Shown: positions 37,393 through 53,427 of the stretch, piece after piece
Numbering within the stretch: the stretch's first letter is position 1
Layout: the number at the start of each line of letters is the position of its first letter
Assembly (NCBI RefSeq): GCF_002727065.1
Contig: NZ_PDVP01000012.1
Location: 1 to 64,000, forward strand
Reading direction: 5' to 3'
DNA: 64,000 nucleotides
From: Zhengella mangrovi
GTDB taxonomy: Bacteria > Pseudomonadota > Alphaproteobacteria > Rhizobiales > Rhizobiaceae
Notes under the pieces: generated by a model
The model's database searches: none
Told to the model about the DNA's origin: nothing
The model's input: the letters and a program-made list of their open reading frames with translations, nothing else
Position numbers and translations under genes: made by a program

Positions 37393-37431
37393 GGTCCCTC
37401 CCGAAAAGACCCATTGCCAACCGAATGTTCC

Positions 37432-37459
37432 TTGACAGTCAGAAAGATCGGTGGATAGT
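37432..37459 (+). promoter_or_regulatory. Candidate promoter of the lactonase/ABC/opsin operon
   Basis: TTGACA at 37432-37437 is a perfect -35; GATAGT at 37454-37459 after 16 bases is an acceptable -10 (4 of 6). The first GTTC-N7-TGAA operator begins at the next base, so a bound IclR protein would block the start site. Confidence 0.5.
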
Positions 37460-37494
37460 GTTCTTATCATTGAATTGTGTTCAGTATGTTGAAC
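37460..37494 (+). promoter_or_regulatory. Two tandem 16-bp IclR-type operator sites
   Basis: GTTC-N7-TGAAT at 37460-37475 and GTTC-N7-TGAAC at 37479-37494 are two copies of one dyad with starts 19 bases apart, close to two helical turns. The second has perfect GTTCA/TGAAC arms. BlcR is known to bind as a pair of dimers to adjacent inverted repeats, so two sites in this position fit an IclR repressor of similar type. Confidence 0.6.
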
Positions 37495-37582
37495 GATAGC
37501 CAGAAAGCAAGATCCTTTGCAAGTCTGACAAACGCATCGAACATCTTTTCTTTGTAGCTCAAGTGCTGTTTGGGAGGAGAGC

Positions 37583-37972
37583 ATGGCTATGAGCGTGAGG
37601 GACTGGGCTGCCCGGTTCAGCGAAGCCTCGGATCGTGATCCCGCGATCGCGGCAATGGCACGCCATTTTACCTGCGTTTATCTTTGGGACATGGGCGCCG
37701 TGCAGGTCATCGTCCGCATGGTCGATGGCCTGGTCCACGAGATCAACATTGCTCCGGGTCCGCTTGACTCCTACGATTTTGCCCTGCGTGCCAGCCCCGA
37801 GACCTGGCGCGAGTTCGCCCGGCGCGTTCCAGCGCCCATGTATCATGGCATCTGGTCCGCGAGCTTCCGCCGCGACCTGAAGCTCGAGGGCAATCTGCTC
37901 GTTCTCATGCAGAACCTCAGGAACTTCACCATCCAGTTCGAACTGTTGCGCAAGGTGGGTGTACCGGTGTGA
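37583..37972 (+). CDS. SCP2 sterol-carrier-like small protein
   Basis: A 129-residue soluble protein, first gene of the operon, RBS GGGAGGAGA. The C-terminal half (ASPETWREFARRVPAPMYHGIWSA then DLKLEGNLLVLMQNLRNFTIQF) resembles the SCP2 lipid-binding fold, in which a G-D/N-L-L-x-L-M helix closes a hydrophobic tunnel. The N-terminal half has VQVIVRMVDGLVHEINIAPGP, compatible with the SCP2 beta sheet. A role in binding a hydrophobic small molecule is inferred only from this resemblance. Confidence 0.6.
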   Translation: MAMSVRDWAARFSEASDRDPAIAAMARHFTCVYLWDMGAVQVIVRMVDGLVHEINIAPGPLDSYDFALRASPETWREFARRVPAPMYHGIWSASFRRDLKLEGNLLVLMQNLRNFTIQFELLRKVGVPV

Positions 37973-38033
37973 TCCGGAGTTAAAGCCGCCTCCCGCCGGA
38001 CGGGCCGCGTTTATTCAATTCACGGAGTCATCC

Positions 38034-38882
38034 ATGGCCAAGCATTCCCCGGTCATCGGCCGTTACGTCACCATCGAGGTCGATGGCTGCGAATACAAGG
38101 TGTTCTACCTGCGCAACGGGTCCGGAACGCCGCTGGTCTGCCAGCACACCGCGGGCTGTCACAATCACCAGTGGCGCGACCTGCTGGAAGATCCGGAGAT
38201 TACCGCGAATTACGACGTGATCGCCTATGACCTTGCGCGTCACGGAAAGTCCGATCCGCCGCTCAACAAGGAGTGGTGGAAGGAGGAGTACCGGCTGACC
38301 GCCGAGCACTACATGAATTTCATCTTGGCCTTCTGCGATGCGCTGGACCTCGAAGACCCCATCTTCATGGGGTCGTCCTTCGGTGGCAACGTCGCGCTTC
38401 AGCTGGCGCTCCACCATCCCGACCGGTTTCGTGCTGTCATCCCGGTCGAGGCAGCCGAGCATGCGCCCGGGTTCTTCCTGGAATGGTGGCGTCACCCCCA
38501 TGCCAACGCGGCGCAGGTATGCGCCTCGGGTGTTTGGGACCTGATGGCGCCGCAAAGCCCGGACCGGGATCGCTGGCTGACCTGGCACTACTACACCCAA
38601 GGATCGGAGGTCTTCCAGGGCGACCTCTATTTCTATTCCGTCGACCATGATCTGCGCGGGCGCCTCGGCGACATCGACACCGGGCGCTGTCCGGTGATCA
38701 TGATGACGGGCACCTACGACTACCTGACTCCGCCGGAGGCAACCGAGAACACGGCCCGCCAGATCCCGGGGGGAATCTACATCGAGATGGAAGACATCGG
38801 GCATTTTCCAATGTCGGAGAACTACCCGGTCTTTTCGGTTTATCTGAAGGAAGCCCTTCGCCTCATCGAAGAGCGGCGCTGA
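38034..38882 (+). CDS. Alpha/beta hydrolase
   Basis: A 282-residue cytoplasmic hydrolase. The catalytic triad is visible: Ser115 in the nucleophile elbow GSSFGG, Asp229 in TGTYDY, and His257 in EDIGHFPMSE. The oxyanion region is QHTAGCHNHQWRDL. No signal peptide. The ATG at 38034 is chosen because the N-terminal beta strands start at VTIEVDGCEYKVFYL; the frame continues upstream without support. It may hydrolyse an ester or lactone feeding the downstream dehydrogenases. Confidence 0.87.
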   Translation: MAKHSPVIGRYVTIEVDGCEYKVFYLRNGSGTPLVCQHTAGCHNHQWRDLLEDPEITANYDVIAYDLARHGKSDPPLNKEWWKEEYRLTAEHYMNFILAFCDALDLEDPIFMGSSFGGNVALQLALHHPDRFRAVIPVEAAEHAPGFFLEWWRHPHANAAQVCASGVWDLMAPQSPDRDRWLTWHYYTQGSEVFQGDLYFYSVDHDLRGRLGDIDTGRCPVIMMTGTYDYLTPPEATENTARQIPGGIYIEMEDIGHFPMSENYPVFSVYLKEALRLIEERR

Positions 38883-38928: not shown

Positions 38929-39867
38929 ATGAAGATTATCGAATTCGATGAGAAAGGGCAGCGCGTCACGACCGAGGCGGGATCGTTCCGCTCGACGCTG
39001 GGTGCTGACAGTCTCGCCCCGCGTCCAAGTTTCAAGACGCCCGAACCGGAAGCCGCCGCGCGCAAGCGCGGCAACTCCTCGGGCATCGAGCTTCACATGT
39101 TCCAGACAGGCACGCTCCGGACCAAGGTGAAGTACATCAAGATGAACCAGGGCGAGGAAGACTTCGAGATTCCCGTGCCATGGTTCCTGATCAAGCATCC
39201 GGCCGGCAACGTGGTCATCGACGGCGGCAATGCCGTCGAGGCGGCCATCGACAAGCGCGGGCACTGGGGCGACGTGGTGGACGCCTATGACCCGATCATG
39301 GATGTTGCCGACAATTGCGCTGACCAGTGCCGCTCGGTCGGCGTCGATCCCCAATCCGTGCGTTATGTTCTCCAGTCCCACCTGCACCTCGATCACACCG
39401 GTGCCATCGGGCATTTTCCCAAGGCGCAGATCATCTGCCAGCGGGCAGAATACGAATACGCCTTCAACCCGCACTGGTTTTCGGCCGGCGCCTACATCCG
39501 CGCCGATTTCGACCGGCCCGGGCTGAACTGGAAATTCCTCGGCGGGGAATACACCGACAACTACGACCTGTTCGGTGACGGAACGATCCGCATGATCTTC
39601 ACTCCGGGCCATGCACCGGGGCACCAGTCATTCCTGGTCACGCTGCCGCGGACGGGTCCGGTCCTGCTGACGATCGATGCGGCCTACACGCTTGATCACT
39701 GGGAGGACAAGGCGCTGCCGGGCCTGGTCGTGTCGTCGGCCGACGCCGCCAACTCGGTGGCCAAGCTGCGGCGCATTGCCAGCGACACCAACGCCATGAT
39801 CGTCACGGGCCATGATCCGGAAAACTGGAAGACGTTCCGAAAGGCGCCGAAGGACTTTTACGACTGA
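38929..39867 (+). CDS. Metallo-beta-lactamase-fold lactonase (AttM/BlcC or AHL-lactonase type)
   Basis: A 312-residue dinuclear zinc hydrolase. Metal ligands: HLHLDH (His151, His153, Asp155, His156), His228 in TPGHAPGH, Asp250 in LLTIDAA, and His295 in VTGHDPENW. The GHDPENWKTFRKAP end is characteristic of AttM-type lactonases, which open gamma-butyrolactone and N-acyl-homoserine lactones. It is about 50 residues longer than AttM because of an N-terminal extension (residues 1-50). With the alcohol and aldehyde dehydrogenases at the operon's end, it could give hydroxy acid, semialdehyde, then diacid. Confidence 0.87.
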   Translation: MKIIEFDEKGQRVTTEAGSFRSTLGADSLAPRPSFKTPEPEAAARKRGNSSGIELHMFQTGTLRTKVKYIKMNQGEEDFEIPVPWFLIKHPAGNVVIDGGNAVEAAIDKRGHWGDVVDAYDPIMDVADNCADQCRSVGVDPQSVRYVLQSHLHLDHTGAIGHFPKAQIICQRAEYEYAFNPHWFSAGAYIRADFDRPGLNWKFLGGEYTDNYDLFGDGTIRMIFTPGHAPGHQSFLVTLPRTGPVLLTIDAAYTLDHWEDKALPGLVVSSADAANSVAKLRRIASDTNAMIVTGHDPENWKTFRKAPKDFYD

Positions 39868-39987: not shown

Positions 39988-41157
39988 ATGAAATTCTTGA
40001 AAGAACTGGCATTGGCCGTGGGCATTCTCGCCATCGGCTCCTCGGCCGTGCTGGCCGAGGGCGTGGACGAGATCAACCCGGAGGTCGCCAAGCGCCTCTA
40101 CAACCCCGACATGCTCGACCCCATGCAGCCGGTCGGGCCGAGCACGCTGCGTGACTTCAAGGCGAAGAACCCGCCGCCGTGGAAGATCGGCTACGCCTCG
40201 TCCTACGCCGGCAACACCTGGCGCGCCAACGCCATGGACGCGCTGCAGAACGAGATCATTCCCAAGTGGAAGGAACTCGGCCTGATCAGCGAAGTCGTTG
40301 TGACCCAGTCGAACCTCAACGACTCCACCCAGATCCAGCAGATGCGCCAGCTGGTCGACCAGGGCGTTGACGCCATTTTCGTCTGCTGCTCCAACCCGAC
40401 GGCCCTGAACCAGACCGTCCAGTACGCGATCGACAAGGGCGTTCCGGTCTTCTCCATGACCGGTTACCTGACGGCGCCCAGCGCCGTGAACTCTTCGGTC
40501 AATTACCAGGTTGCCGGTTTCGAGATCGGCAAGCGCATGGCCGATGAACTCGGCGGTGAGGGCAATGTCCTCGTCGTGGAAGGCATCCCCGGCACCTCCG
40601 GTTCCGACAGCCAGGACCGCGGCGTCAAGGCCGGCCTCGCCACCGCGCCTGGCATCAAGGTGGTCGGCTCCATCGCCGGCATGTGGACCGACCAGGTCGC
40701 CCAGGGCGAAGTGCAGAAGTGGCTCGCCACCCATCCGGGCAAGCTCGACGGCATCGTGGTGCAGTCCGCCGCCGAGATGGGCGTGCTGCGCGCCCTACAG
40801 CAATCCGGCCGGACGGGCGTCAAGGTCGCCATCGGTGGTGAACTCGGGGCGCTCTGCACCTGGCGCAAGAACCCCGACCTGATCTCGGTCGCCGTTCAGA
40901 CCTGGCCGCCGGCCGATGACGTGAACCTCATCTGGCGCATCATGATGCGCACGTTGCAGGGCCAGGGTCCGAAGGTTCAGTCGGTTCTCGTCGATCCGGT
41001 CACCATCACCCACGACGACGTGATGAAGCTGCTGCCGGAGAATTGCGACGAGAATGCGCAGAACTGGCTCAACGTCGGCGCCGAGAAGTGGGGTTCCGAG
41101 GAATACCTCGACCAGTTCTTCGTCAATCCTGCCGACCCGACCAAGTACAAGCCCTGA
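39988..41157 (+). CDS. Sugar-type ABC transporter solute-binding protein (second importer)
   Basis: Periplasmic Peripla_BP_4 protein, 389 residues, longer than usual (about 310-340). Signal peptide residues 1-23 (MKFLKELALAVGILAIGSSAVLA). A 40-residue N-terminal segment (GVDEINPEVAKRLYNPDML...) precedes the fold, which begins at WKIGYASSYAGNTWRANAM. Cleft hinge LVDQGVDAIFVCCSNPTALNQTV. RBS AAGGAGGAG is the strongest in the operon. Followed by a 26-base stem-loop. Confidence 0.88.
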   Translation: MKFLKELALAVGILAIGSSAVLAEGVDEINPEVAKRLYNPDMLDPMQPVGPSTLRDFKAKNPPPWKIGYASSYAGNTWRANAMDALQNEIIPKWKELGLISEVVVTQSNLNDSTQIQQMRQLVDQGVDAIFVCCSNPTALNQTVQYAIDKGVPVFSMTGYLTAPSAVNSSVNYQVAGFEIGKRMADELGGEGNVLVVEGIPGTSGSDSQDRGVKAGLATAPGIKVVGSIAGMWTDQVAQGEVQKWLATHPGKLDGIVVQSAAEMGVLRALQQSGRTGVKVAIGGELGALCTWRKNPDLISVAVQTWPPADDVNLIWRIMMRTLQGQGPKVQSVLVDPVTITHDDVMKLLPENCDENAQNWLNVGAEKWGSEEYLDQFFVNPADPTKYKP

Positions 41158-41232: not shown

Positions 41233-42981
41233 ATGACCGCAACCGAGCACGACATCACACAGACGGCAGCGAGGCGAGAGACCATCGCTGTCCGGAATGT
41301 GAAGAAGTTTTTCGGGCCGACCCGTGCGCTCGATGGCGTCAGCTTTTCGGCCTGCGCCGGGGAAATCCATGCCATCGTCGGCGGGAACGGTTGCGGCAAG
41401 TCCACCATGGCCAAGGTGGTCTCGGGAGTTCTGCCGATCGATTCCGGATCCGTGTCGATCCTGGGTGAGACGCCCTCGACCCCGGCCGAAAGCAAGGCGC
41501 TCGGTATTTCCACCGTCTACCAGGAAGTGTTGGTAGCCGATGAAAGTACCGTCGCGGACAACATCTTCATGGGCGCCGACGCGCTTTTCTCGAAAAACCT
41601 TTCGCACGAACGAAAGGTGCAGCGCGCCGCGCAGTTGATGAAGGACCTGGCCGGCGAGCCTGTCGATCCCCATGCGATCGCCGGTACTTTGCCGCTCGGC
41701 CTCAAGCAGTGGATCACGATTGCGCGTGCGCTCGTCAGCGAACCGAAGATCCTCATTCTCGACGAAAGTTCCGCGGCGCTCGATTTCGACAGCACCGAAC
41801 GGCTGTTCGCCAAGATGAGGGAACTGCGCGACAGCGGAACGACGATCCTGATCGTCACGCATCGCATTGCCGAACTGATCCGCATTTCCGATCGGGCAAC
41901 GGTCCTGCGCGACGGGCGCGATGTCGGTGTGCTCGAAAAGGAAGAAATCACCGAGAAGAACCTGCTCGCCCTGATGACGGGAGACGAGAGCGCGGATCAT
42001 GGCCATGGACACGCCGCCCCGCAGCCCGTCGACGATACACCGGCCATGGTTGGCGAGGGTATCGGCGTCTGGGCCGGAACGAAGCCGTTTGATTTCCGCC
42101 TGCGGCGTGGCGAGATCGTCGGGGTGGCCGGCCTCGACGGACAGGGCCAGGATGCGTTCGTCAGGGCCATCGCCGGCGTCGAGCCCGTGCTGACGGGAAC
42201 GGTCCGCGTACTGGACCGCAACGGCGACCGGCATTTCGTCCGCTCCCTTGCCGATGCGGTGAAAAACCGGATCGCCTATGTCTCCGGAGATCGCAAGCGG
42301 GAAGGCATTTTCGCCTCGCTGTCGATCTTCGAGAACATGGTGATGCCGCTCTACCGCGAGAAGAAGCGTGGCGGCATCCTCGGTCTGATCGACTGGGGAA
42401 CGCTGGGCGCGATCTTCAAGCGCGAAGCCGGGAATCTCCTGATCAAGTTCGGCCTGCGCGAGGATCGCATCACGTCACTGTCCGGTGGCAACCAGCAGAA
42501 GGTCTTGATCGGGCGCGGCTTCGCGATGCGTCCCGACGTGATCGTGCTCAACGATCCGGCTCGCGGTATCGACGTGGGAGCCAAGAGCGAACTCTACAAG
42601 CACCTGCGGACGTTTGCGGGTGAGGGGAAGTCCGTCGTTTACCTATCGTCCGAACTGGAGGAGTTCATCGGCTTCGCCACGCGCGTCATCGTGTTTCGCG
42701 ACGGCAAGCCCTTCGATGCTTTCGACGGGCGGACACTGGATCCCAAGAAGGTCCTCGAGGCGATGTTCGGCCAGACGGACGGTTCCGGTCTGGCCGCATC
42801 GCTGGATATCGCGCCGCGTCATGCTCCCGTGGCACCTCTTGATCGGGACAACACGCGAGATGCCATACCCGCTCAAAGGGCGGCGAAGCGCGATGGCCTG
42901 CCCAGGTCCATCCGGATCGTGGAGTTCGAGGGCGGTGTCCGCAAGGCGCGGGATGTCAACCCGGAAGGGCCGCGCCCATGA
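41233..42981 (+). CDS. Sugar-type ABC transporter double ATPase with C-terminal extension
   Basis: RbsA-like, 582 residues against about 500 usual. Domain 1: Walker A GGNGCGKSTMAKVVSG, signature degenerate as LPLGLKQWITIARAL, Walker B ILILDESSAALD. Domain 2: GVAGLDGQGQDAFVRAI replaces Walker A (normal degeneration), [15 protein letters not shown] and VIVLNDPARGID intact. The extra residues are a His/Asp-rich linker near 256-266 and a polar tail of about 70 residues after MFGQTDGSG. The tail has no recognisable domain. Overlaps the permease by 4 bases. Confidence 0.88.
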   Translation: MTATEHDITQTAARRETIAVRNVKKFFGPTRALDGVSFSACAGEIHAIVGGNGCGKSTMAKVVSGVLPIDSGSVSILGETPSTPAESKALGISTVYQEVLVADESTVADNIFMGADALFSKNLSHERKVQRAAQLMKDLAGEPVDPHAIAGTLPLGLKQWITIARALVSEPKILILDESSAALDFDSTERLFAKMRELRDSGTTILIVTHRIAELIRISDRATVLRDGRDVGVLEKEEITEKNLLALMTGDESADHGHGHAAPQPVDDTPAMVGEGIGVWAGTKPFDFRLRRGEIVGVAGLDGQGQDAFVRAIAGVEPVLTGTVRVLDRNGDRHFVRSLADAVKNRIAYVSGDRKREGIFASLSIFENMVMPLYREKKRGGILGLIDWGTLGAIFKREAGNLLIKFGLREDRITSLSGGNQQKVLIGRGFAMRPDVIVLNDPARGIDVGAKSELYKHLRTFAGEGKSVVYLSSELEEFIGFATRVIVFRDGKPFDAFDGRTLDPKKVLEAMFGQTDGSGLAASLDIAPRHAPVAPLDRDNTRDAIPAQRAAKRDGLPRSIRIVEFEGGVRKARDVNPEGPRP

Positions 42982-44441
42982 GCCAGGCCGGCATGACACT
43001 GGACGGAAATGGCGAGGCAGTGCCGGAGACCGAGGCGGCCGCAATGGTCCGCGGCGGCCGCGCCAATCCCTTCCTGCTGGTCCCCATCACGCTGTTTTTC
43101 CTGCTGCTCGGTCTTGCCGTTCTCCGCTCGCCGAGCCTCATGACCTCCTATGGCCTCGGCAGCGCCGTGATCGTCGCGACGCCGCTGATCCTGGCAACCT
43201 ATGCGCTGATGGCATCCGTCATCTCCGGCCGTGGCACGGTCGACCTGTCCATCGGCCCGCTCATTGGCTTCATCAACGTCACGCTGATCCAGCTCTACGC
43301 GGCGGAAATCCTCCAGAACCCGATTGCGATCTTCGCCTATGCGATCGCGCTCGGGGCCCTTTACCAGTTCGTTTTTGCGCTGATCGTCATCTACGTTCGC
43401 GTGCAGCCCATCATCGTGTCGCTGTCGGGCTACCTGGCGCTGTCCGGCATCAACCTCGTGATCCTGCCCCGGCCAGGCGGCATGGCCCCCCAGTTCATGG
43501 CGGACTGGGGCCTCGGCACCTCGATTTTCTCTCCGGTCTTCGTCATCCTGGTGCTGGCGACGCTGGCATGGCTCCTGTTCACGCGGACGGCCTTCTACAC
43601 CCACCTCCGCCTCATGGGATCAGACGAGCGCGCGGCCTACACCTCGGGCGTGCCGATCTTCATCGTGCGCATCGGTGCCCACATCATCTCCGGGGGTTTT
43701 GCAGGCCTTGCCGCGATCGCCTTCACGGCGCTGATCTCGTCCGGCGATCCCTCACAGGGAACCACATACACGCTGATCGCCGTAACCGCACTGGTGCTCG
43801 GCGGCGCCTCCCTTGGCGGCGGACGGGCCGGCGTCTTCGGGTCCTTCCTTGGCGCGGTGAACCTCTATCTGATCACATACGTGCTGGCGACGTTCAACTT
43901 CGGCGCGGTCCAGAGTTTCGTCACCAACCTGGCCTACGGGTCGATCCTGGTGATCTCCCTGCTGCTGACCCTCATCATCCCCTTCATCCAGCGCCACATC
44001 CACAATTTCTCGCCGGTTCTCTATTTCGTCGTCCTTGGCGTGGTCGCGCTCGGGGTCATTCTTCACGCGACCAACGACCACGATCCCCGGGCGCGCCGCG
44101 CGCCGGCGGAAACGGCCGTCGTGACGATGCAGGTGCTCGAACCGATCCCTGCGGACCAGCTTTACGTCGGCCCTCTCGAAGTCGCGCGGCCCGATGCCAG
44201 GACGGACGAATTGCGCCGCGATGCCGTTCCGATGATCCTGTCGGCCATCCTCCTGGTGGTGATCGCGGTCTTCCTGCGCCTTGCGGTCAGCCGTTCGAAC
44301 CGCAGGACCGTTGCGCCCGCGGTGGCCGTGGTGGTGGCCTCGCTGGTGCTTCTTGCAGCCTATCTCGTGCGGGAGCAGGCGGATGACGGTGCGGGCACAC
44401 CGCCGCAGGCACCGGCCGGAAATACGGAGCGCGTCCAATGA
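42978..44441 (+). CDS. Sugar-type ABC transporter permease, enlarged (1)
   Basis: BPD_transp_2 permease, 487 residues against about 320 usual. The core spans about residues 25-340 (SVISGRGTVDLSIGPLIGFINVT; VTALVLGGASLGGGRAGVFGSFLGA). It is followed by an extra hydrophobic segment, a cytoplasmic or periplasmic linker with YVGPLEVARPDARTDELR, and two more hydrophobic segments (about 410-435 and 447-470). The C-terminal extension is unusual for the family and has no homologue I recognise. Coupled by 4-base overlaps to both neighbours. Confidence 0.87.
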   Translation: MSQAGMTLDGNGEAVPETEAAAMVRGGRANPFLLVPITLFFLLLGLAVLRSPSLMTSYGLGSAVIVATPLILATYALMASVISGRGTVDLSIGPLIGFINVTLIQLYAAEILQNPIAIFAYAIALGALYQFVFALIVIYVRVQPIIVSLSGYLALSGINLVILPRPGGMAPQFMADWGLGTSIFSPVFVILVLATLAWLLFTRTAFYTHLRLMGSDERAAYTSGVPIFIVRIGAHIISGGFAGLAAIAFTALISSGDPSQGTTYTLIAVTALVLGGASLGGGRAGVFGSFLGAVNLYLITYVLATFNFGAVQSFVTNLAYGSILVISLLLTLIIPFIQRHIHNFSPVLYFVVLGVVALGVILHATNDHDPRARRAPAETAVVTMQVLEPIPADQLYVGPLEVARPDARTDELRRDAVPMILSAILLVVIAVFLRLAVSRSNRRTVAPAVAVVVASLVLLAAYLVREQADDGAGTPPQAPAGNTERVQ

Positions 44442-45814
44442 CCGTTTCGGCCAATCCTCCGTCCCTCGGACTGCCGGCGACCATCATCGGCCTCGTCGCC
44501 GGTGTCATCCTGACCGCGATCGGCGTCGTCTACGGTTTCATCCAGGGGCTGTCCGTCCAGATCATCATCCTGTCGGCCATCGCCACGCTCGGCGCCTTCG
44601 TCTGGGCCTGGCGGTTCGTGCTCGGACAGTTCATGAACCAGGATGCCGAACCGCTGGGCGAGGGGCAGATCAGCGAGGGACGGCGCGTCTGGCTCCAGTT
44701 CCGTCCGGCCATCTACGGCCTTCTGGTCCTGCTGGCCCTTTTCATCATCCTGTCGCTCACCATCGACGGCTTCTTCAATGTCTGGAACGTCGTCTCGTTC
44801 CTGATCATCCTGACCATCATCGTGCTGACACGGACTCTTGGGCGCCATTTCCAGGAAAACCGCTCGGCCTTCATCGGCATCATGGTCCTGTGCGGACTGT
44901 TTTCGATCGGGTCGATGAACATCGAGGGGTTCGCCTCCGCCAACAACATCAAGTCGATGCTGTTGTTTGCATCGTTTCTCGGAATCGCATCGGTCGGCCA
45001 GACGCTGGTGGCGCTTCTCGGCGGTCTCGACCTGTCCATTCCCTTCATCATCGGCGCCGCAAACGTCGGCCTGCTCTACCTCATCGGACTCGGCGTCCCG
45101 CCCTGGCTGGCCGCCATCATCGTGCTGGCCATTGGCACGCTGCTGGGCGTGATCAACGGCCTGTTGAGCTACCGCCTGCAGGGGCAGGCGCTGATCGTGA
45201 CGCTCGGCACCGGCTTTGCCATCTCCGGCGGCGTCCAGATCATCACCTCGATCGGTTCGGCCTATTCCGGCAACGTCTTCGGCCAGGTGCCGCCCTGGTT
45301 GTCCAATCTCGCCGCAATGAACGGCTCGACCTTCGGCCTGCCGTTTCCGCCGGTGATTGCCATCTGGGGCCTGGTGCTGATCGTCCTGATCGCCGGCATG
45401 CGGCTGACGGTCTATGGCCGCTACCTCTACGCGCTCGGCGTGAACAGGACATCGGCCAAGCGGGTGATGATTTCGGAACTGGGATACTGGGTGACCATGT
45501 ATGCCATCTCCGGCTTTTTCGCCGCGCTGACCGGCGGGCTTCTGCTCGGCTGGTCGGGTGGCGGGTTCATCGGCGTTGGCGACCAGTATCTCTTCCTGAC
45601 GCTTGCCGCTGTGGTCGTGGGCGGAACGTCGCTGCTCGGCGGGCAGGGCGGATACGGCTTCACCGTCATCGGCGTGCTGGTTCTCCAGGTTCTCTCGTCA
45701 TTCCTGATCGGCATCGGCCTGGATTTCGAATGGCAGCAATTCATTTTCGGTCTTCTGATCCTGCCGATGGTCGCGCTTTACGCGCGCTCCCCGCACATCA
45801 GAACCCAAATCTAG
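44438..45814 (+). CDS. Sugar-type ABC transporter permease, enlarged (2)
   Basis: BPD_transp_2 permease, 458 residues. An N-terminal addition of about 100 residues contains two hydrophobic segments (residues 10-34 and 38-58) and a charged linker before the core. The core shows SVGQTLVALLGGLDLSIPFIIGAANVG and VVVGGTSLLGGQGGYGFTVIGVLVLQVL. With the other permease it would give a complex that carries additional helices at both the N- and C-termini, which is atypical. Stop at 45814. Confidence 0.87.
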   Translation: MTVSANPPSLGLPATIIGLVAGVILTAIGVVYGFIQGLSVQIIILSAIATLGAFVWAWRFVLGQFMNQDAEPLGEGQISEGRRVWLQFRPAIYGLLVLLALFIILSLTIDGFFNVWNVVSFLIILTIIVLTRTLGRHFQENRSAFIGIMVLCGLFSIGSMNIEGFASANNIKSMLLFASFLGIASVGQTLVALLGGLDLSIPFIIGAANVGLLYLIGLGVPPWLAAIIVLAIGTLLGVINGLLSYRLQGQALIVTLGTGFAISGGVQIITSIGSAYSGNVFGQVPPWLSNLAAMNGSTFGLPFPPVIAIWGLVLIVLIAGMRLTVYGRYLYALGVNRTSAKRVMISELGYWVTMYAISGFFAALTGGLLLGWSGGGFIGVGDQYLFLTLAAVVVGGTSLLGGQGGYGFTVIGVLVLQVLSSFLIGIGLDFEWQQFIFGLLILPMVALYARSPHIRTQI

Positions 45815-45825
45815 GAAGACATGCC

Positions 45826-45864
45826 ATGAAGTCGGACATGATACGCAAGGGGAGTGCAAGGTGA
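45826..45864 (+). CDS. Possible 12-codon leader peptide coupled to the opsin-like gene
   Basis: ATG at 45826 opens MKSDMIRKGSAR and stops at TGA 45862-45864. AGGAAG lies 7-8 bases upstream of the ATG, and the stop overlaps the opsin start as TGATG. This would couple opsin translation to the leader. Only the sequence geometry supports it; chance cannot be excluded. Confidence 0.3.
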   Translation: MKSDMIRKGSAR

Positions 45865-46571
45865 TGGCGGTGTTCGAGACAGCCGACCTGACGGCGGCGA
45901 GTTATTCGACGGCCTTTCTGGGACTGGTCGCGACGAGTGTCCTGCTGCTCATCGGCACGGGTTGGGTCGGCCGCGCCTGGAAACTCCCCGTGACGCTCTG
46001 CGCGCTGGCCGCTCTCGTTGGCGTGGTGGCGATGTACGAGGCCCGCACCGCCTGGGCGGCCGCGAAGAGCGTGCCGGTGGTGTACCACTACGTCGGCTGG
46101 GCGATATCGATGCCGCTGCAGGTGCTGGCGCTCTATTTCCTGGCGCTGACCAGCGGCCGGCTCGGAATAGGGCTGTTCTGGCGGCTGAGCGTCGTGTCGG
46201 TCCTGATGGTCTTCGTCCGCTACCTCGGCGAGGCCGGCTTCATGCATGCCACGCTCGCCTTCCTCATCGGCCTCGTCTTCTGGCTGTACATCCTCGGAGA
46301 ACTGTTCTTCGGCAGGATGGACGAAGTCATCCGCAAGTCGCCGAGCGAGACGCTGCGCCGAGGCTATTTCTGGCTTCGGCTGATCGTCACGGTGGGCTGG
46401 GCCATCTACCCGCTGGGCAATTTCATCACGTCCTTTGCCGGCTATGCCGACGACGGGGCGCTGTCGGTTGCCTACAACATCGCCGATTTCCTGAACCGGA
46501 TGGCCTTTGGGGCCGCCGTGCTGGCAACCGCCATGCTCCAGGGCGAGGAGGCGCGTCATGACCGGAACTGA
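45864..46571 (+). CDS. Microbial-opsin-like seven-helix protein lacking the retinal lysine
   Basis: A 235-residue membrane protein with seven hydrophobic segments near 13-33, 39-60, 74-95, 103-124, 127-149, 168-191 and 200-225, the size and layout of type 1 rhodopsins. Helix C reads HYVGWAISMPLQVLAL, helix F GWAIYPLGN, helix G YNIADFLNRMAFG. Conserved: Trp79, Pro84, Trp179, Tyr182, Pro183, Asp208. Changed against proteorhodopsin: Schiff-base Lys is Arg212 (codon CGG at 46497-46499), proton acceptor Asp is Gly78, donor Glu is Ala89, and helix-C Arg is His75. It cannot bind retinal by the usual Schiff base and is unlikely to pump protons. A GTG at 45861 is an alternative start. In the operon between ABC permeases and a flotillin; role unknown. 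Confidence 0.82.
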   Translation: MAVFETADLTAASYSTAFLGLVATSVLLLIGTGWVGRAWKLPVTLCALAALVGVVAMYEARTAWAAAKSVPVVYHYVGWAISMPLQVLALYFLALTSGRLGIGLFWRLSVVSVLMVFVRYLGEAGFMHATLAFLIGLVFWLYILGELFFGRMDEVIRKSPSETLRRGYFWLRLIVTVGWAIYPLGNFITSFAGYADDGALSVAYNIADFLNRMAFGAAVLATAMLQGEEARHDRN

Positions 46572-46622
46572 GCGACCGAACGTCAACCAGAAACGTCCGT
46601 ACAATTGTGAAGGAACAAATCA

Positions 46623-48329
46623 ATGAAGGGTGCAGATTTCATTGCAATCATCATCCTTGCAGCGATAGTCATCGCGGTCTGCGCCTATCTCCTGCATTGG
46701 CTGTACCGCCGCTCGACAAAGGATATTTCCTTCGTACGAACCGGCTTCGGCGGCGAGAAGGTCGTGATGGGGGGCGGCGCCTTCGTGCTCCCGATCCTTC
46801 ACGACATCACCGAGGTCAACATGAACACGCTGCGCCTGGAAATCCTCCGGGCGCGGGAGAAGTCGCTGATCACGAAGGACCGGATGCGTGTCGAGCTGAC
46901 GGTCGAATTCTACGTCCGTGTCCAGCCGGAGGTCGATGCGGTGGCCACCGCCGCCCGGTCGCTCGGCAATCGCACCATGCACGCCGAGCAGCTCAAGGAT
47001 CTCATCCAGGGCCGGTTCGTGGATGCCATGGGCGGGGCGGCCGCCAAGATGACGCTGGAGCAGATCCACGAGCATCGCTCGGACTTCGTCAAGGAGGTCC
47101 GCACCGAGGTCGCGGAGAGCCTGGCGCTGGACGGTCTGGAGCTTGAATCGGTCTCGCTGACATCGCTCGACCAGACCGACATTTCCCTCTTCGACCCGTC
47201 GAACACCTTCGACGCCGAGGGTCTGACGATCCTGACCGAGCAGATCGAGAGCCGGAAGAAGAAGCGCAACGACATCGAGAAGGACACGATGATCGCCATG
47301 CGCGCCAAGAACCTGGAAGCGGAAAAGAGATCTCTCGAGATCCAGCGCGACAGCGAATATGCGCGCCTGGCCCACGAGGCGGAAGTCGCGATCCAGCGCG
47401 CCGAGCGCAAGGCGGAAATCTCCAACGAGAACGCACGCCGCGAGCGCGAGATCGAGGAGATCAAGCTCTCCGAGCGCAGGGCTGTCGAGAGCGCCCGCAT
47501 TTCGATGGAGCAGGAAGTCGAGCGCATCGAGGTCAAGCGCCGGGAAGCGCTCCAGCTTGAGGAGCAGGCCCGCGAGATCGCCGTTTCGATGAAGTCGAAG
47601 GAGCGTTCGGAAGCGCAGGCGCTCGCGGAGGCTGCCCGCGCCAAGATGATCGAGGCGCAGGAAAAGGTGCAGACCATCCGCGACACCGAGATCGCCAACC
47701 GTCAGAAGGCAATCGAACTGCTGGAAGCGCAGAAGGTCGCCGAGTCGGAAGCCGCGCGCCAGAAGATCCTCGCCGAAGCAGAAAAGGCGGCGGCAAAGGA
47801 CCGTGCCGATGCCGACAAGATCGCCGTTGCGGCACTCGCCGAGCGTCTCGCGGTCGAGGCCGAAGGCAAGCGCAAGCTCAACGAGGCGGAAAACCTGCGT
47901 TCCGATGCGTCCCGCCGCTCGGGCCTGCACAAGGCGCTGGTGGAAAACCTGCCGGCAATCATTCGCGAAAGCGTCAAGCCTATGGAGAAGATCGAGGGTA
48001 TCAAGATCCTCCACGTCGACGGCATGCCGGGCTTCTCCGGCACTGCTGGCGGTGCTGGCGGTGGCACGGGAGGCGCGGGCGGCGAGGGCACCGGTCCCAG
48101 CGATCCGAACCTGGCCGACCAGGTGGTGTCCTCGGCGTTGCGCTACCGGTCGCAGGCGCCCTTCGTGGACCAGTTGCTGAACGAGATCGGGCTGAGCGCC
48201 GACACCGTTCACCGGCCGCATACCCTGCAGGACCTGTCGAAAATCGTCTACACGGATCCCTCTTCGGTCGAAGGAAAGGCGAAAAAGACGCCGGCTTCCG
48301 GAAGCGCCGGCAAGCCGCCCGCGAAGTGA
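46623..48329 (+). CDS. Flotillin-family (SPFH, YqiK-like) membrane scaffold protein
   Basis: A 568-residue protein anchored by one N-terminal segment (residues 7-28). The SPFH/band-7 domain covers about 30-190 (RTGFGGEKVVMGGGAFVLPILHDI; MRVELTVEFYVRVQPE). A long Glu/Ala/Lys/Arg coiled coil runs from about 205 to 430, typical of flotillins that oligomerise into membrane microdomain scaffolds. A Gly-rich linker (about 473-490) and a C-terminal segment near 497-545 follow. It lies 51 bases after the opsin-like gene and may organise the membrane proteins of this operon; that is inference. Confidence 0.88.
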   Translation: MKGADFIAIIILAAIVIAVCAYLLHWLYRRSTKDISFVRTGFGGEKVVMGGGAFVLPILHDITEVNMNTLRLEILRAREKSLITKDRMRVELTVEFYVRVQPEVDAVATAARSLGNRTMHAEQLKDLIQGRFVDAMGGAAAKMTLEQIHEHRSDFVKEVRTEVAESLALDGLELESVSLTSLDQTDISLFDPSNTFDAEGLTILTEQIESRKKKRNDIEKDTMIAMRAKNLEAEKRSLEIQRDSEYARLAHEAEVAIQRAERKAEISNENARREREIEEIKLSERRAVESARISMEQEVERIEVKRREALQLEEQAREIAVSMKSKERSEAQALAEAARAKMIEAQEKVQTIRDTEIANRQKAIELLEAQKVAESEAARQKILAEAEKAAAKDRADADKIAVAALAERLAVEAEGKRKLNEAENLRSDASRRSGLHKALVENLPAIIRESVKPMEKIEGIKILHVDGMPGFSGTAGGAGGGTGGAGGEGTGPSDPNLADQVVSSALRYRSQAPFVDQLLNEIGLSADTVHRPHTLQDLSKIVYTDPSSVEGKAKKTPASGSAGKPPAK

Positions 48330-48397: not shown

Positions 48398-48823
48398 ATG
48401 TCCAAGCCTGCCAGGGTTGAGCGTGATCTTTTGGTCTTTTCGATCTGGGCCGTGCTCGGAAGCGGCGGGCTGTGTTTCCTGCTCGAAGGCTTCTCCCGTG
48501 ACTCCTATCTTCTTTCCCTGATCGGGATTGCCGCAATCGTCGCCAGTTTCGTGGCCCACTTCATCGTCAACGGCATTTTCGGCGTCGGCTTCGGCCCGGG
48601 CGAGGCTGCCCTCGGCATCGGCGTCTTCGGGGTGATCCTGATGGTCTTCATTGGAGGATGGGCAATCGGTGCCCTGTCGGAAAGCGACTACTGGTCGGGC
48701 CTGACCCTTTTCGCCGTGCTCGCCCTCGGGCTGCCCGTCTACCTGTCGACCCGCTACGGGCTGCGCGGCGCATTCTCGCATTTCCACGTCCGGCACGCCG
48801 ATTTCGAGGATTCCGATCAATGA
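48398..48823 (+). CDS. Small membrane protein preceding a sodium:solute symporter
   Basis: A 141-residue protein with four hydrophobic segments near 10-30, 37-60, 67-90 and 101-116, and an acidic C-terminus (HVRHADFEDSDQ). No family recognised. Its stop overlaps the symporter start by ATGA, so the two are made together; small membrane subunits are known beside some SSS-family transporters, and this one may play such a part. RBS GGAG eight bases before the ATG. Confidence 0.7.
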   Translation: MSKPARVERDLLVFSIWAVLGSGGLCFLLEGFSRDSYLLSLIGIAAIVASFVAHFIVNGIFGVGFGPGEAALGIGVFGVILMVFIGGWAIGALSESDYWSGLTLFAVLALGLPVYLSTRYGLRGAFSHFHVRHADFEDSDQ

Positions 48824-50769
48824 CCGGTCTTCACCACGCGATCTGGCTGCCGCTGTCGGTCTTCTTCTATGCGATGGTGATGCTGTACTGGGTGCGGGTG
48901 TCCATCGCCGGCAACAGGGGCGCGGACGGCTTCTTCTCCGCCAGCCACGGCCTGCCGCCATGGCTCGGCGCGCTGGTCACTGCCGGGGTCAGCCTGACGG
49001 GCTGGTTCGTGCTCGGCGGAACGCAACTGGTCGCCCGGGACGGCTTTACGCTGCCGGTACTCGTTTCAGCCGGGGTTCTGCTGGCGCTTCCCGGTGTGAT
49101 CTTCTTCAAGCGGCTCTGGTTCGCAGCCGAGCGCCTGCATGTTTCGTCGCTGGCCGACGTCTTCCGTCTCTACTACGGCAGCCCGTTCCTCGTCGTCGTC
49201 ACGACTGCCATCGCGGTCCTTTTCGCGCTGGGCTTTTCCGGACTGCAGGTGCGCATGCTGTCCGGCCTCGTCGAGGCCATGACGGGGGGCGCCGTCTCCG
49301 AACTGGCCGCGACGACCATTTTCGGGTTCATCCTGTTTGCCGGCGTCGGGATCGGCGGGATGCGGTCGATCGGCTATTTCGGCGTGATCCAGACGGTGCT
49401 GGTCCTGTCGGCCATCGTCTTCGTGGCCGGGTTCGCCGTCGTTTCGGCCGGCGGCTTTGAACCCGTCAATGCCCGTTTGCTGGCGCTCAGTCTTCAACCG
49501 GAGACCGCCCGGCTTTTCTCGGTCGGCAAGGTCATCGAGTTCACCGCCGGTCTTGGCCGCGGCGGTGACTATGCGACATCGCATACCGCGCTCGCCAATC
49601 TCAGCCTTGCGTTCGCCCTGATGGGCTTCCAGGCAAGCCCGCTCGTTTTCAAGATCCTGTTCTCGACCCGGAGGCCCAGTGGCGTGGCGGCAGGGCAGAT
49701 CTGGGTTACGGCCGGCTTCCTCGGCGCCTTGATCGCCGGCGGGATCATGCTGACCGGCGCCGTCGGGCTCGTCGACGACGGTTTCTCGATCGTCACCCTG
49801 TTCCAGGGCCTCCATGACCGTTCGCCGTGGTTCGCGGCCTGGATGTTCATCGGCGTGGCGGCCGGGGTGCAATTGCTCGCCGGTCTCTCGCTCTTTGCCG
49901 CGGCTGAAGGCCTGGTGCGCCACGTCTACAGGCCGTACTTCCATTCGGCCCTGTCCAAGGCGGCGACCGTGACCATCACCCGCATCGCCATTGCCATCCT
50001 GGCCGTCCTCGCGATGATCCTCCAGACCATCGCGCCGGTCACGCTTTCCGCCCTGGCGGCATTGGCGCTGCCGCTGGCCTTCCAGTTGTGGACCCCGCTC
50101 CTCGGCGTTTCATGGCTGGGGTGGATCACCCGGCAGGCCGCGGCCACCGGCGTCGGTTTCGGGATTGCCGGGGTCCTCCTGACCGAGCCGCTCGGCTACC
50201 AGGTCCTGTCCTTCTTCGGCCTGGAACTGCCGTGGGGCCGCTGGCCCTGGACGATCCATTCCGCTCTTTGGGGAATGGCGGCCAATCTTGCCGCCGTGCT
50301 GATCATTTCCGCGATCACCAACAGGACGGTCGTGCGGCAGGAGGCGGCCGAGATCCGCGCGCTCTTCTCGGGCCTGCTCGCCATTTCTCCCAAAGCCCGG
50401 GACTGGCGGTCATTCGCCTGGTCGATCGTGATCGCTTGGTTTTTCCTCGCGGCCGGACCGGGCCTGATCTTCGGGAATACCGCCTTCGTGTCAGGCGAGG
50501 GCGAGACGACCGCCTGGCTTCTCGGCATGCCGTCGCTCTGGGCCTGGGGCATTGCAGGCTGGGTCAGCGGCCTGGGGATGATCTGGTTCCTGGCCTACCG
50601 GATGGAGATGGCGAACCCGTCGCAGGCCGTGATCCCCGCCTACACGCCGCCATTGAAGCTTCGCCGCAACAATACCGAGATCGAACAGGAGCGGCTGCGG
50701 ATCCTGTTCATGGCCGGCGCGATCGTCTTCGTCCTGGCGGTTCTCGCCGCATTCATATTCAGCCGGTGA
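48820..50769 (+). CDS. Sodium:solute symporter (SSS) family transporter
   Basis: A 649-residue inner-membrane protein with 13-15 hydrophobic segments, longer than the usual 500-residue SSS. SSS-like features: GADGFFSASHGLPPWLGALVTAGVSLTGWFVLGGTQ at residues 32-67, the RLHVSSLADVFRLYYGS segment, and FSGLQVRMLSGLVEAMTGG. The C-terminus adds about 120 residues with three more helices. The substrate cannot be deduced; the operon suggests a monocarboxylate or lactone-derived acid. The frame opens earlier inside the preceding gene, but MTGLHHAIW at 48820 is the coupled start. Confidence 0.82.
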   Translation: MTGLHHAIWLPLSVFFYAMVMLYWVRVSIAGNRGADGFFSASHGLPPWLGALVTAGVSLTGWFVLGGTQLVARDGFTLPVLVSAGVLLALPGVIFFKRLWFAAERLHVSSLADVFRLYYGSPFLVVVTTAIAVLFALGFSGLQVRMLSGLVEAMTGGAVSELAATTIFGFILFAGVGIGGMRSIGYFGVIQTVLVLSAIVFVAGFAVVSAGGFEPVNARLLALSLQPETARLFSVGKVIEFTAGLGRGGDYATSHTALANLSLAFALMGFQASPLVFKILFSTRRPSGVAAGQIWVTAGFLGALIAGGIMLTGAVGLVDDGFSIVTLFQGLHDRSPWFAAWMFIGVAAGVQLLAGLSLFAAAEGLVRHVYRPYFHSALSKAATVTITRIAIAILAVLAMILQTIAPVTLSALAALALPLAFQLWTPLLGVSWLGWITRQAAATGVGFGIAGVLLTEPLGYQVLSFFGLELPWGRWPWTIHSALWGMAANLAAVLIISAITNRTVVRQEAAEIRALFSGLLAISPKARDWRSFAWSIVIAWFFLAAGPGLIFGNTAFVSGEGETTAWLLGMPSLWAWGIAGWVSGLGMIWFLAYRMEMANPSQAVIPAYTPPLKLRRNNTEIEQERLRILFMAGAIVFVLAVLAAFIFSR

Positions 50770-50797: not shown

Positions 50798-51955
50798 ATG
50801 ACCCCGTTCACGTTCAACACGTCGAAGTCGATCCGCTTCGGAGCCGGTGCGATCGGGCAGTTGGGCGACATCGTTTCGTCGGAAATCGGCAGCCGGGTCC
50901 TGCTCGTCACCGATCCTGGCATGATTGCCACCGGCCTTGTCGAACGGGCGCTGGATGCCCTGCGCAAGGCAGATATCACGGTGGAGATGTTTTCCGATGT
51001 CGAGGCCGATCCGCCGGAAGCCGTTGTCCTTGAGGCTGCAAGGCGCGCCATGGAGGCCGGCATCGATGGTGTCGTCGGCTTCGGCGGCGGCTCCTCGCTT
51101 GACGTCGCCAAGCTGGCGGCCCTGCTTGCCCATGGCAAGGAGACGCTAGCCGATGTCTACGGTGTCGGTAACGCCAAGGGCCCCAGGCTGCCGCTGGTTC
51201 TCGTGCCAACGACCGCCGGGACCGGCTCCGAGGTGACGCCGATATCGATCGTGACCACCGGTACCAATGAGAAGATGGGCGTCGTATCGCCGGTTATCCT
51301 GCCCGATATCGCGCTGCTCGACCCGGAACTCACCTATGGCCTGCCGCCGCATATCACGGCAGCAACCGGGATCGATGCCATGGTGCATGCGATCGAAGCC
51401 TATGCGTCGGCCAGCGCCAACAACAATCCGGTGTCGCGCATGCTGGCGACCCAGGCGCTCACGCTGATGGGCGGTTCCGTCCTGAAGGCAGTGCGCAACG
51501 GCGCCGACACCGAAGCCCGGTCCAACATGCTGCTGGGTTCCATGCTGGCCGGCCAGGCCTTCGCGAATTCGCCCGTCGCCGCCGTCCACGCGCTGGCCTA
51601 TCCGCTCGGGGGCCATTTCCACATCCCGCACGGCCTCTCCAATGCCCTGGTGCTGCCCCACGTCCTCCGGTTCAACATCGTCACGTCGCCGTCGCCCTAC
51701 GCGGAACTGGCCCCGTTCGCATTTCCCGACCTGGCGGATCTCGAAGGCCAGGCGCGCGCAGCGGCCTTCTGCGACCGGCTGGCCGACCTTTCCGTGGCCT
51801 GCGGCCTCCAGCCCAATCTCCGCGCGATGAACATCCCGGAAGACGTATTGCCGAAACTGGCCTCGGACGCGATGAACCAGACGCGTCTGCTCGTCAACAA
51901 TCCGCGCCCGCTGACCGAGGCGGATGCGCTCGCCATCTATACTGCGGCCTACTGA
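50798..51955 (+). CDS. Iron-containing alcohol dehydrogenase (BlcB/GHB-dehydrogenase type context)
   Basis: A 385-residue type III NAD(P)-dependent dehydrogenase. NAD-binding GGGSSLDVAK near residues 93-102 and VPTTAGTGSEVTP near 139-151. The metal site is GIDAMVHAIEAY (Asp and His) plus AVHALAYPLGGHFHIPHGLSNA (His residues). All expected ligands are seen. It would oxidise an omega-hydroxy acid to the semialdehyde for the next gene's product, as BlcB does with 4-hydroxybutyrate. RBS AGGAGA; 28 bases after the symporter. Confidence 0.9.
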   Translation: MTPFTFNTSKSIRFGAGAIGQLGDIVSSEIGSRVLLVTDPGMIATGLVERALDALRKADITVEMFSDVEADPPEAVVLEAARRAMEAGIDGVVGFGGGSSLDVAKLAALLAHGKETLADVYGVGNAKGPRLPLVLVPTTAGTGSEVTPISIVTTGTNEKMGVVSPVILPDIALLDPELTYGLPPHITAATGIDAMVHAIEAYASASANNNPVSRMLATQALTLMGGSVLKAVRNGADTEARSNMLLGSMLAGQAFANSPVAAVHALAYPLGGHFHIPHGLSNALVLPHVLRFNIVTSPSPYAELAPFAFPDLADLEGQARAAAFCDRLADLSVACGLQPNLRAMNIPEDVLPKLASDAMNQTRLLVNNPRPLTEADALAIYTAAY

Positions 51956-51975: not shown

Positions 51976-53427
51976 ATGACGCTTGAGCTCAAAGACCCGA
52001 CGCTTCTGCAGAGCCATGCCTTTCTGGGCGGAGAATGGGTCGCGGGAAGCAGGACTTTTCCGGTTCTCAATCCGGCCACTGGCGAAAAGATCGCCGATGT
52101 GGCCGATCTGACGCCGCAGGATGTGGCCACCGCGATCGACCTGGCCTACGACGCGCAAAGGGAATGGCGCAACCGCACCGCCAAGGAGCGTTGCGCCGTT
52201 CTGCTGAAGTGGAACGACCTGCTGATGGAAAACCAGGATGACCTCGGTGCCATCCTGACCGCGGAAATGGGAAAGCCCCTGGCCGAGGCAAAGGGCGAGA
52301 TCGCCTATGGCGCGTCCTTCATCCAGTGGTTCGCGGAAGAGGCACGCCGGGTCTATGGCGACGTCATCCCGGGCCACCAGGCCGACAAGCGTATCGTCGT
52401 CATCAAGCAGCCCATCGGGGTCGTCGGATCGATCACGCCGTGGAATTTCCCCAACGCCATGATCGCCAGGAAGGTCGGTCCGGCGCTGGCTTCGGGGTGC
52501 TCCTTTGTCGGCAGGCCCGCCGAGAAGACGCCGCTGTCGGCGCTCGCCATGGCCGTGCTTGCCGAGCGGGCAGGGGTGCCGAAGGGCGTTCTGTCCATCA
52601 TCACCAGTTCCGATTCCAAGGGGGTCGGCCTTGAACTCTGTACGAACCCGAAGGTGCGCAAGCTGACCTTCACCGGATCGACGGAAGTGGGCCGCATCCT
52701 GATGAAACAGTGCTCGCACGATATCAAGAAACTGTCGCTTGAACTCGGCGGCAATGCGCCGTTCCTGGTCTTCAACGATGCCGACCTGGATGCGGCTGTC
52801 GAAGGCGCGATGATCGCCAAGTACCGCAACTCCGGCCAGACATGCGTCTGCGCCAACCGGATCTATGTCCAGAGCGGGGTCGCGGCGGCATTCGCCGAAA
52901 AACTGGCGGCGGCCACCGCGGGCCTGACGGTCGGAAACGGAATGGACCAGGGCGTCAACATCGGGCCGCTGATCGATACGGCCGGCCTGCAGAAGGTCGA
53001 GGACCACGTTTCCGATGCCGTGTCGAAAGGGGCCCGGGTGCTGACCGGCGGCAAGCGGTCCGACCTTGGTGGCACCTTCTTCCAGCCGACGGTGCTGATG
53101 GACGTGGCGAGGGGAATGAAGATCCTCTCGGAGGAAACCTTCGGCCCGGTCGCGCCGATCATTACCTTCGAGACGGTCGAGGACGGGATCGCGCTTGCCA
53201 ATGACACCGAGTTCGGCCTGGCCGCCTATTTTTACGCGCGCGATATCTCGACGATCTGGAAGGTGGCCGAGGAACTGGAAAGCGGCATGGTCGGGATCAA
53301 CACCGGTCTCGTGTCGACGGCCGAAGCGCCGTTCGGCGGCATCAAGTCGTCCGGCCTCGGGCGCGAAGGCTCGAAATACGGCATGGATGAATTCCTGGAG
53401 ATCAAGTACCTGTGCATGGCGGTCTAG
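51976..53427 (+). CDS. NAD(P)-dependent succinate-semialdehyde-type aldehyde dehydrogenase
   Basis: A 483-residue aldehyde dehydrogenase. Cofactor-site PWNFPNAMIARKVGPAL near residues 156-172, TGSTEVGR near 233-240, catalytic Glu in ELGGNAPF and catalytic Cys in SGQTCVCANR near residue 289. The tandem C-x-C and overall length match GabD-type enzymes. It would complete oxidation to the dicarboxylate (succinate if the substrate is succinate semialdehyde). Last gene of the operon. No clear terminator before the convergent LysR gene. Confidence 0.92.
   Translation: MTLELKDPTLLQSHAFLGGEWVAGSRTFPVLNPATGEKIADVADLTPQDVATAIDLAYDAQREWRNRTAKERCAVLLKWNDLLMENQDDLGAILTAEMGKPLAEAKGEIAYGASFIQWFAEEARRVYGDVIPGHQADKRIVVIKQPIGVVGSITPWNFPNAMIARKVGPALASGCSFVGRPAEKTPLSALAMAVLAERAGVPKGVLSIITSSDSKGVGLELCTNPKVRKLTFTGSTEVGRILMKQCSHDIKKLSLELGGNAPFLVFNDADLDAAVEGAMIAKYRNSGQTCVCANRIYVQSGVAAAFAEKLAAATAGLTVGNGMDQGVNIGPLIDTAGLQKVEDHVSDAVSKGARVLTGGKRSDLGGTFFQPTVLMDVARGMKILSEETFGPVAPIITFETVEDGIALANDTEFGLAAYFYARDISTIWKVAEELESGMVGINTGLVSTAEAPFGGIKSSGLGREGSKYGMDEFLEIKYLCMAV

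Follow-up and report, generated by a model that had tools for sequence, protein, structure and literature searches.

A lysine-less, flotillin-associated opsin of Zhengella mangrovi as a possible light-independent subunit of a lactone or lactam importer

Introduction

The pairing of an opsin gene with a flotillin gene is already known from the flotillin-associated rhodopsins, or FArhodopsins (Haro-Moreno 2023; PsFAR 9R21, 2025), which occur in abundant ocean bacteria. FArhodopsins from single-cell genomes of SAR11, HIMB59 and Pseudothioglobus keep the retinal lysine; in those from freshwater metagenomes it is replaced by Gln, Thr, Leu or Arg (PMC10308929). Marine FArhodopsin genomes always contain a proteorhodopsin as well, and it has been proposed that the FArhodopsin acts as a helper of the proteorhodopsin pump (PMC10308929). 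Another lysine-less rhodopsin, Rh-noK, has been described in betaproteobacteria, where its gene stands in tandem with that of a working rhodopsin (PMC10308929).

Part of the locus described here resembles a second system, the blcRABC (attJKLM) genes of Agrobacterium. BlcR (AttJ), a member of the IclR family, is the divergent regulator of blcABC, and blcA and blcB encode alcohol and succinate-semialdehyde dehydrogenases. Through this pathway, gamma-butyrolactone is degraded via 4-hydroxybutyrate and succinic semialdehyde (PMC5924552, PMC4231840).

The locus lies in a window of 64,000 nucleotides from Zhengella mangrovi (contig NZ_PDVP01000012.1, positions 1 to 64,000). What is new here is the Arg/Gly/Arg variant of the opsin and its operon setting. 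Among the papers searched, none dealt with PsFAR or with a link between opsin, flotillin and lactonase.

The opsin–flotillin locus

About 14 genes make up a conserved neighbourhood with the opsin–flotillin pair at its heart. In the window they are the following:

36619..37584, minus strand: IclR-family regulator, divergent (PF01614, E 8e-27; PF09339, E 1e-11)
37583..37969, plus strand: conserved protein of 129 aa (no Pfam match)
37959..38882, plus strand: alpha/beta hydrolase (PF00561, E 3e-22)
38929..39867, plus strand: AttM/BlcC-type lactonase (NCBIfam NF045700, 429 bits, cut-off 390)
39988..41157, plus strand: substrate-binding protein of an ABC importer, RbsB-like (PF13407, E 2e-37)
41233..42981, plus strand: ATPase of the ABC importer (PF00005, E 1e-38, two stretches)
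42978..44441, plus strand: ABC permease 1, with a C-terminal extension (PF02653)
44438..45814, plus strand: ABC permease 2, with an N-terminal extension (PF02653)
45864..46571, plus strand: opsin, lysine-less (Arg212), flotillin-associated (PF01036; best PDB match PsFAR)
46623..48329, plus strand: flotillin with one N-terminal TM anchor (PF15975, PF01145)
48398..48823, plus strand: four-helix membrane protein of 141 aa, no known family (structure model)
48820..50769, plus strand: SSS-like sodium/solute symporter, divergent (profile A1)
50798..51955, plus strand: Fe-containing alcohol dehydrogenase (PF00465, E 1.5e-50)
51976..53427, plus strand: succinate-semialdehyde dehydrogenase family enzyme (TIGR01780, 703 bits, cut-off 646)

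The first-pass annotation had placed an opsin-like gene 51 bases from a flotillin of 568 residues, and both the spacing (46572-46622, 51 bp) and the size and coordinates of the flotillin are right. The opsin frame, stop included, encodes a microbial rhodopsin family protein of 235 aa (PF01036, E 2.3e-20, 73.5 bits, cut-off 24.6). The flotillin matches PF15975 (E 1.3e-35) and PF01145 (E 1.2e-15), and scores 71.8 bits against the NCBIfam FloT equivalog NF058507, below the cut-off of 700. The single anchor claimed for it corresponds to one hydrophobic helix at residues 6-24, and the coiled coil of about 225 residues agrees with a charged, proline-free and almost glycine-free stretch at residues ~205-430, as read from the sequence and not from a coil predictor.

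Conservation of the pair and distribution of its hosts

Homologues of the opsin were gathered in 397 genomes of the order, 385 of the class, 359 of the phylum and 42 named genome contigs. They include 57 flotillin-type (FAR) loci; in two of these, L092 and L049, a short contig breaks off next to the opsin. The flotillin follows the opsin on its 3' side and on the same strand in 56 of the 56 testable loci (median gap 55 bp). On the 5' side of the opsin, an ABC permease gene is just as constant (56/56 testable; median gap 48 bp). The earlier annotation had proposed conservation of the pair across genomes as its check, with rare adjacency as the refuting outcome; the two genes are adjacent in every testable locus, which rules out a chance pairing. 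The pair is thus a real, conserved unit, but the annotation overlooked that it belongs to a known family and does not stand alone. With an ABC importer, an SSS-like symporter and lactone catabolism around it, a mere scaffold cargo is too restricted a view of the opsin.

The association was also read in reverse, from the flotillin. Nine of ten full-length orthologues that are at least 66% identical sit in opsin genomes; the tenth (G282) is uninformative, its contig ending 82 bp past the flotillin start. The remaining flotillins listed are at most 58% identical, and include those of the lysine and Leu groups (see below) and paralogues elsewhere.

A maximum-likelihood tree, built without any published FAR sequence (PsFAR is the best PDB match), places all flotillin-linked opsins and no others in one clade of the proteorhodopsin-like family (100/98, with a long-branch warning). 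Within it, lysine-bearing members, from HIMB59-like and other genomes, stand beside a single lysine-less clade (100/100), which divides into an Arg group, including the opsin of the window, and a Leu group. Opsins of the Arg type were found in Hyphomicrobiales and Rhodobacterales; the named hosts include Hoeflea, Ensifer, Gellertiella, Metarhizobium, Ciceribacter, Stappia and Roseovarius, which are not streamlined ocean plankton.

RefSeq holds the same gene order, annotated with attM, "bacteriorhodopsin" and "flotillin domain-containing protein", on two plasmids. The plasmid copies of the operon are those of Hoeflea sp. IMCC20628 (L148) and of Pararhizobium gei plasmid p2 (L149), the latter typed as conjugative and carried by a plant-associated strain. 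Because the operon is found on plasmids, one of them typed conjugative, the whole operon can probably spread horizontally.

Accessory and catabolic genes

The IclR regulator is present in 41 of the 57 FAR loci, several of the remainder being incomplete, and the 129-aa gene in 50; the latter may correspond to the gene called "sterol-carrier-like" in the FAR clusters published so far. The 141-aa protein has no Pfam or NCBIfam match. Its structure model consists of four helices (pLDDT 84) and yields no significant PDB fold match, and its profile finds no credible match in PDB sequences. Profile A1 of the symporter matches SLC5A7 (E 3.5e-12) and NIS/SGLT1; PF00474 is matched by 11 of 15 members of the symporter family, and weakly by the one in the window (E 0.019).

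The alpha/beta hydrolase is the most conserved gene of the module, with 79-93% identity except in the Leu group. In the HIMB59-like locus L129 the hydrolase is 79% identical, versus 31% for the opsin, and its substrate may hold the key to the whole module. The Fe-containing alcohol dehydrogenase (35/57 loci) and the succinate-semialdehyde dehydrogenase (23/57) are the most variable genes, counted with some loci incomplete. The alcohol dehydrogenase is possibly a 4-hydroxybutyrate dehydrogenase; it falls under every NCBIfam equivalog cut-off (NF058672, 247 bits against 500).

Lysine-bearing FAR clusters carry other catabolic genes. The neighbours in L048 are caprolactamase alpha and beta, both above cut-off, and L129 encodes a PxpA-type 5-oxoprolinase subunit, above a subfamily cut-off, together with a biotin carboxylase and a dimethylformamidase-like protein. 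With an AttM lactonase here, caprolactamase in L048 and PxpA in L129, the opening of cyclic esters or amides would appear to be a theme common to FAR clusters. As the catabolic genes vary between loci, the substrate may differ between lineages.

Residues of the opsin

The AlphaFold model of the opsin has the seven-helix fold (pLDDT 90). In sequence, its closest PDB entries are the PsFAR cryo-EM structures 9r21 and 9r23 (E ~1e-42), which also lead the fold matches (for 9r21, Z 31.3, rmsd 2.1 Å, 233 aligned residues, 33% identity). In bacteriorhodopsin numbering, the position of the Schiff-base lysine in helix G, Lys216, is occupied by Arg212, that of the Asp85 counterion by Gly78 and that of Asp96 by Ala89. 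The positions of PsFAR E120 and H84 correspond to Arg119 and Met83. Arg212, Gly78 and Arg119 are kept across 45 distinct sequences of the Arg group. Arg119 and Gly78 recur in the Leu group, so a single loss of the photochemical machinery probably accounts for both groups.

The dN/dS of the opsin is about 0.05-0.17 in six genome pairs, and the neighbouring genes give similar values. Judged by these ratios, the lysine-less opsin is under purifying selection and hence kept for some function. A decaying pseudogene is ruled out by the same values, together with the conserved arginine.

Within the former retinal pocket, W79, P84, W179, Y182, P183 and Arg212 are invariant or nearly so in the 45 sequences, and the aromatic cage itself (W79, W179, Y182) is still invariant. 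Such a cage would also suit a ligand-binding role, and the opsin might then be a chemosensor, with the former retinal pocket binding a lactone or a breakdown product and signalling through the flotillin or the transporter; a substrate theme of small cyclic molecules would fit. This is unlikely, however: no transducer, kinase or cyclase is found among the conserved genes of the cluster, the pocket positions mutated in PsFAR are bulky here (Met83, Arg119), and the IclR regulator already provides sensing.

The same residue changes bear on whether the opsin could itself be a facilitator, its seven helices letting the substrate, or its acid, across the membrane alongside the ABC importer. Its fold is that of an ion-pump family, the loss of the Asp85 counterion (to Gly) and of the lysine could open a path, and transport genes always accompany it. 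This is a very improbable role nonetheless, as the operon already has two transporters dedicated to the task, such a path would probably run into Arg119 and Arg212, and no precedent was found in the rhodopsin family.

Retinal supply and other rhodopsins

The opsin is the sole PF01036 match in its own genome by profile search, and the other FAR-carrying Hyphomicrobiales genomes have one match each. Neither a Blh/BCD oxygenase (PF15461) nor an RPE65-type oxygenase (PF03055) was found in the genome, which, with no second PF01036 gene, rules out a hidden proteorhodopsin or retinal pathway there. Of the 15 FAR-carrying Hyphomicrobiales genomes tested (two of which are 61% and 84% complete), none has BCD, and all five proteorhodopsin-carrying control genomes do. 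PF03055 matches are present in G092, G750, G580 and G673, where retinal might be formed.

With lysine replaced by Arg, Asp85 by Gly, an Arg at the PsFAR E120 position and no retinal-forming oxygenase found, the opsin very probably cannot bind retinal. These features uphold the first-pass annotation, which had called the opsin retinal-less and not a pump. Some part in light responses, as a proteorhodopsin helper or with a non-covalent chromophore, would be in line with the role proposed for marine FArhodopsins from their constant proteorhodopsin (PMC10308929). Yet the lysine, Asp85 and the acid of D96 are all lost, and neither a second PF01036 gene in this or the other FAR-carrying Hyphomicrobiales genomes nor a BCD or RPE65 gene in its own genome was found, which leaves a light role scarcely credible. 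The helper role in particular cannot apply in this genome, where the opsin is the only rhodopsin and the search for retinal-forming enzymes came back empty.

Among relatives, the FAR genes of L126, L127, L128 (g207) and L049 keep both the lysine and Asp85 in genomes with neither BCD nor a second opsin match; RPE65-family genes are present in g207, which might therefore have a supply of retinal.

A separate PF01036 group was observed in f18/g66 genomes of the same order (L019, L020, L021, L028 and L029). Its open frames give proteins of ~370-390 residues with a C-terminal extension that ends in a TM-like helix. The lysine position is Arg, Phe or Ser in the copies inspected, and neither a flotillin neighbour nor a BCD gene was found.

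Permease extensions

Both ABC permeases carry additional membrane segments. The C-terminal extension of permease 1 covers about residues 335-487 (~150 residues, about three predicted TM helices), and the N-terminal extension of permease 2 about residues 1-137, with four predicted TM helices. Matches of permease 1 to opsin-less relatives end at residues 323-334, and the relative in L133 is 324 aa long.

In the 397 genomes of the order, the extended form of permease 2 occurs 14 times, each time in a genome and a locus that also have the opsin and the flotillin. Its five closest short relatives, 58-64% identical over the region they share with it, come from genomes with no PF01036 match. Four of these five loci were read, and have neither a flotillin nor the 129-aa gene; their permease 1 is short. 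The co-occurrence of the extension with the opsin, and likewise with the flotillin and the 129-aa gene (14/14 against 0/5), gives a Fisher p of 9e-5. This value overstates independence, because the five opsin-less importer relatives represent no more than about three lineages and common descent links every sample. Being present or absent together with the opsin and the flotillin, the extensions are where a contact with the opsin would most likely be made.

The behaviour of the permeases also bears on another reading, in which the opsin would only help the flotillin to order the membrane in general and the transport genes would be its neighbours by co-regulation. The flotillin pairing is universal (56/56), and the published view of FAR clusters emphasises microdomains (PMC10308929). 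However, permease 2 is an equally constant neighbour and its extension, like that of permease 1, comes and goes with opsin and flotillin. The genome has two more flotillin paralogues (G000:C66:129180-130334, 50% identical; G000:C11:249924-251459, 38%), both away from any opsin, which further makes a general membrane role distinctly unlikely.

Proposed mechanism

The reading preferred here, to which an even chance is given, is that the opsin works, independently of light, as a subunit of a lactone or lactam importer organised by the flotillin. We infer a physical complex, a substrate class, a structural or gating role for the opsin and a mode of regulation, which would combine as follows. The opsin would be a former light pump that now serves, without light, as an accessory membrane component of the uptake machinery. 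Oligomers of the flotillin would gather the ABC importer with its extended permeases, the opsin, the four-helix protein and the SSS-like symporter into one membrane patch, which would import a cyclic ester or amide (a lactone or lactam, gamma-butyrolactone-like). The ring would be opened by the AttM lactonase, and possibly also by the alpha/beta hydrolase, and the product oxidised via a 4-hydroxy acid and a semialdehyde (Fe-containing alcohol dehydrogenase, succinate-semialdehyde dehydrogenase) to succinate. The operon would be turned on through the IclR protein, acting as a repressor that responds to an intermediate.

The constancy of permease 2, which adjoins the opsin as invariably as the flotillin does, suggests a transporter subunit; gene order could also reflect shared regulation only. 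A bolder version is put forward tentatively, and may well be wrong: the opsin, needing neither light nor retinal, would dock on the additional helices of both permeases (N-terminal in permease 2, C-terminal in permease 1) as a core structural or gating subunit, held in the flotillin patch, and FArhodopsins would be lactone or lactam transporter subunits and not photoproteins.

If the transporter-subunit reading is true, an opsin fold would serve nutrient import and not light. For FArhodopsins, whose published role is the guess of proteorhodopsin help, the operon content gives a guess at the substrate (lactones, lactams) and at likely partners (the extended ABC permeases). Cultured relatives (Hoeflea, Gellertiella, Metarhizobium, Ensifer, Roseovarius) make the function testable by gene deletion.

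Comparison with known systems

The operon shares with blcRABC an AttM-type lactonase, alcohol and succinate-semialdehyde dehydrogenases and a divergent regulator. However, blcABC lacks the opsin, flotillin, ABC and SSS genes, the gene order differs, and the Fe-containing alcohol dehydrogenase of the window is not an equivalog by cut-off. As in Rh-noK, an opsin gene has been retained despite the loss of the retinal lysine, but the partner there is a tandem working rhodopsin, whereas the genome of the window has no partner rhodopsin. PsFAR keeps the lysine and the aspartate and has H84 and E120, the two residues altered in its double mutant; the opsin described here has Arg212, Met83 and Arg119.

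The closest likeness is to the FArhodopsins, with the opsin immediately 5' of the flotillin on the same strand (PMC10308929). Published FAR clusters and the window both contain a membrane translocator, a sodium symporter, an alpha/beta hydrolase and an Fe-containing alcohol dehydrogenase, to which the window operon adds the AttM lactonase and the succinate-semialdehyde dehydrogenase. Marine FArhodopsins keep the lysine and co-occur with proteorhodopsin, whereas the opsin of the window has Arg in its place, Gly for Asp85 and no other rhodopsin beside it in the genome; a proteorhodopsin elsewhere in the genome is not established for the freshwater FArhodopsins, and thus is not a defining feature. 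Compared with published FArhodopsins, the Arg-type opsins reside in non-streamlined, often cultured Hyphomicrobiales and Rhodobacterales.
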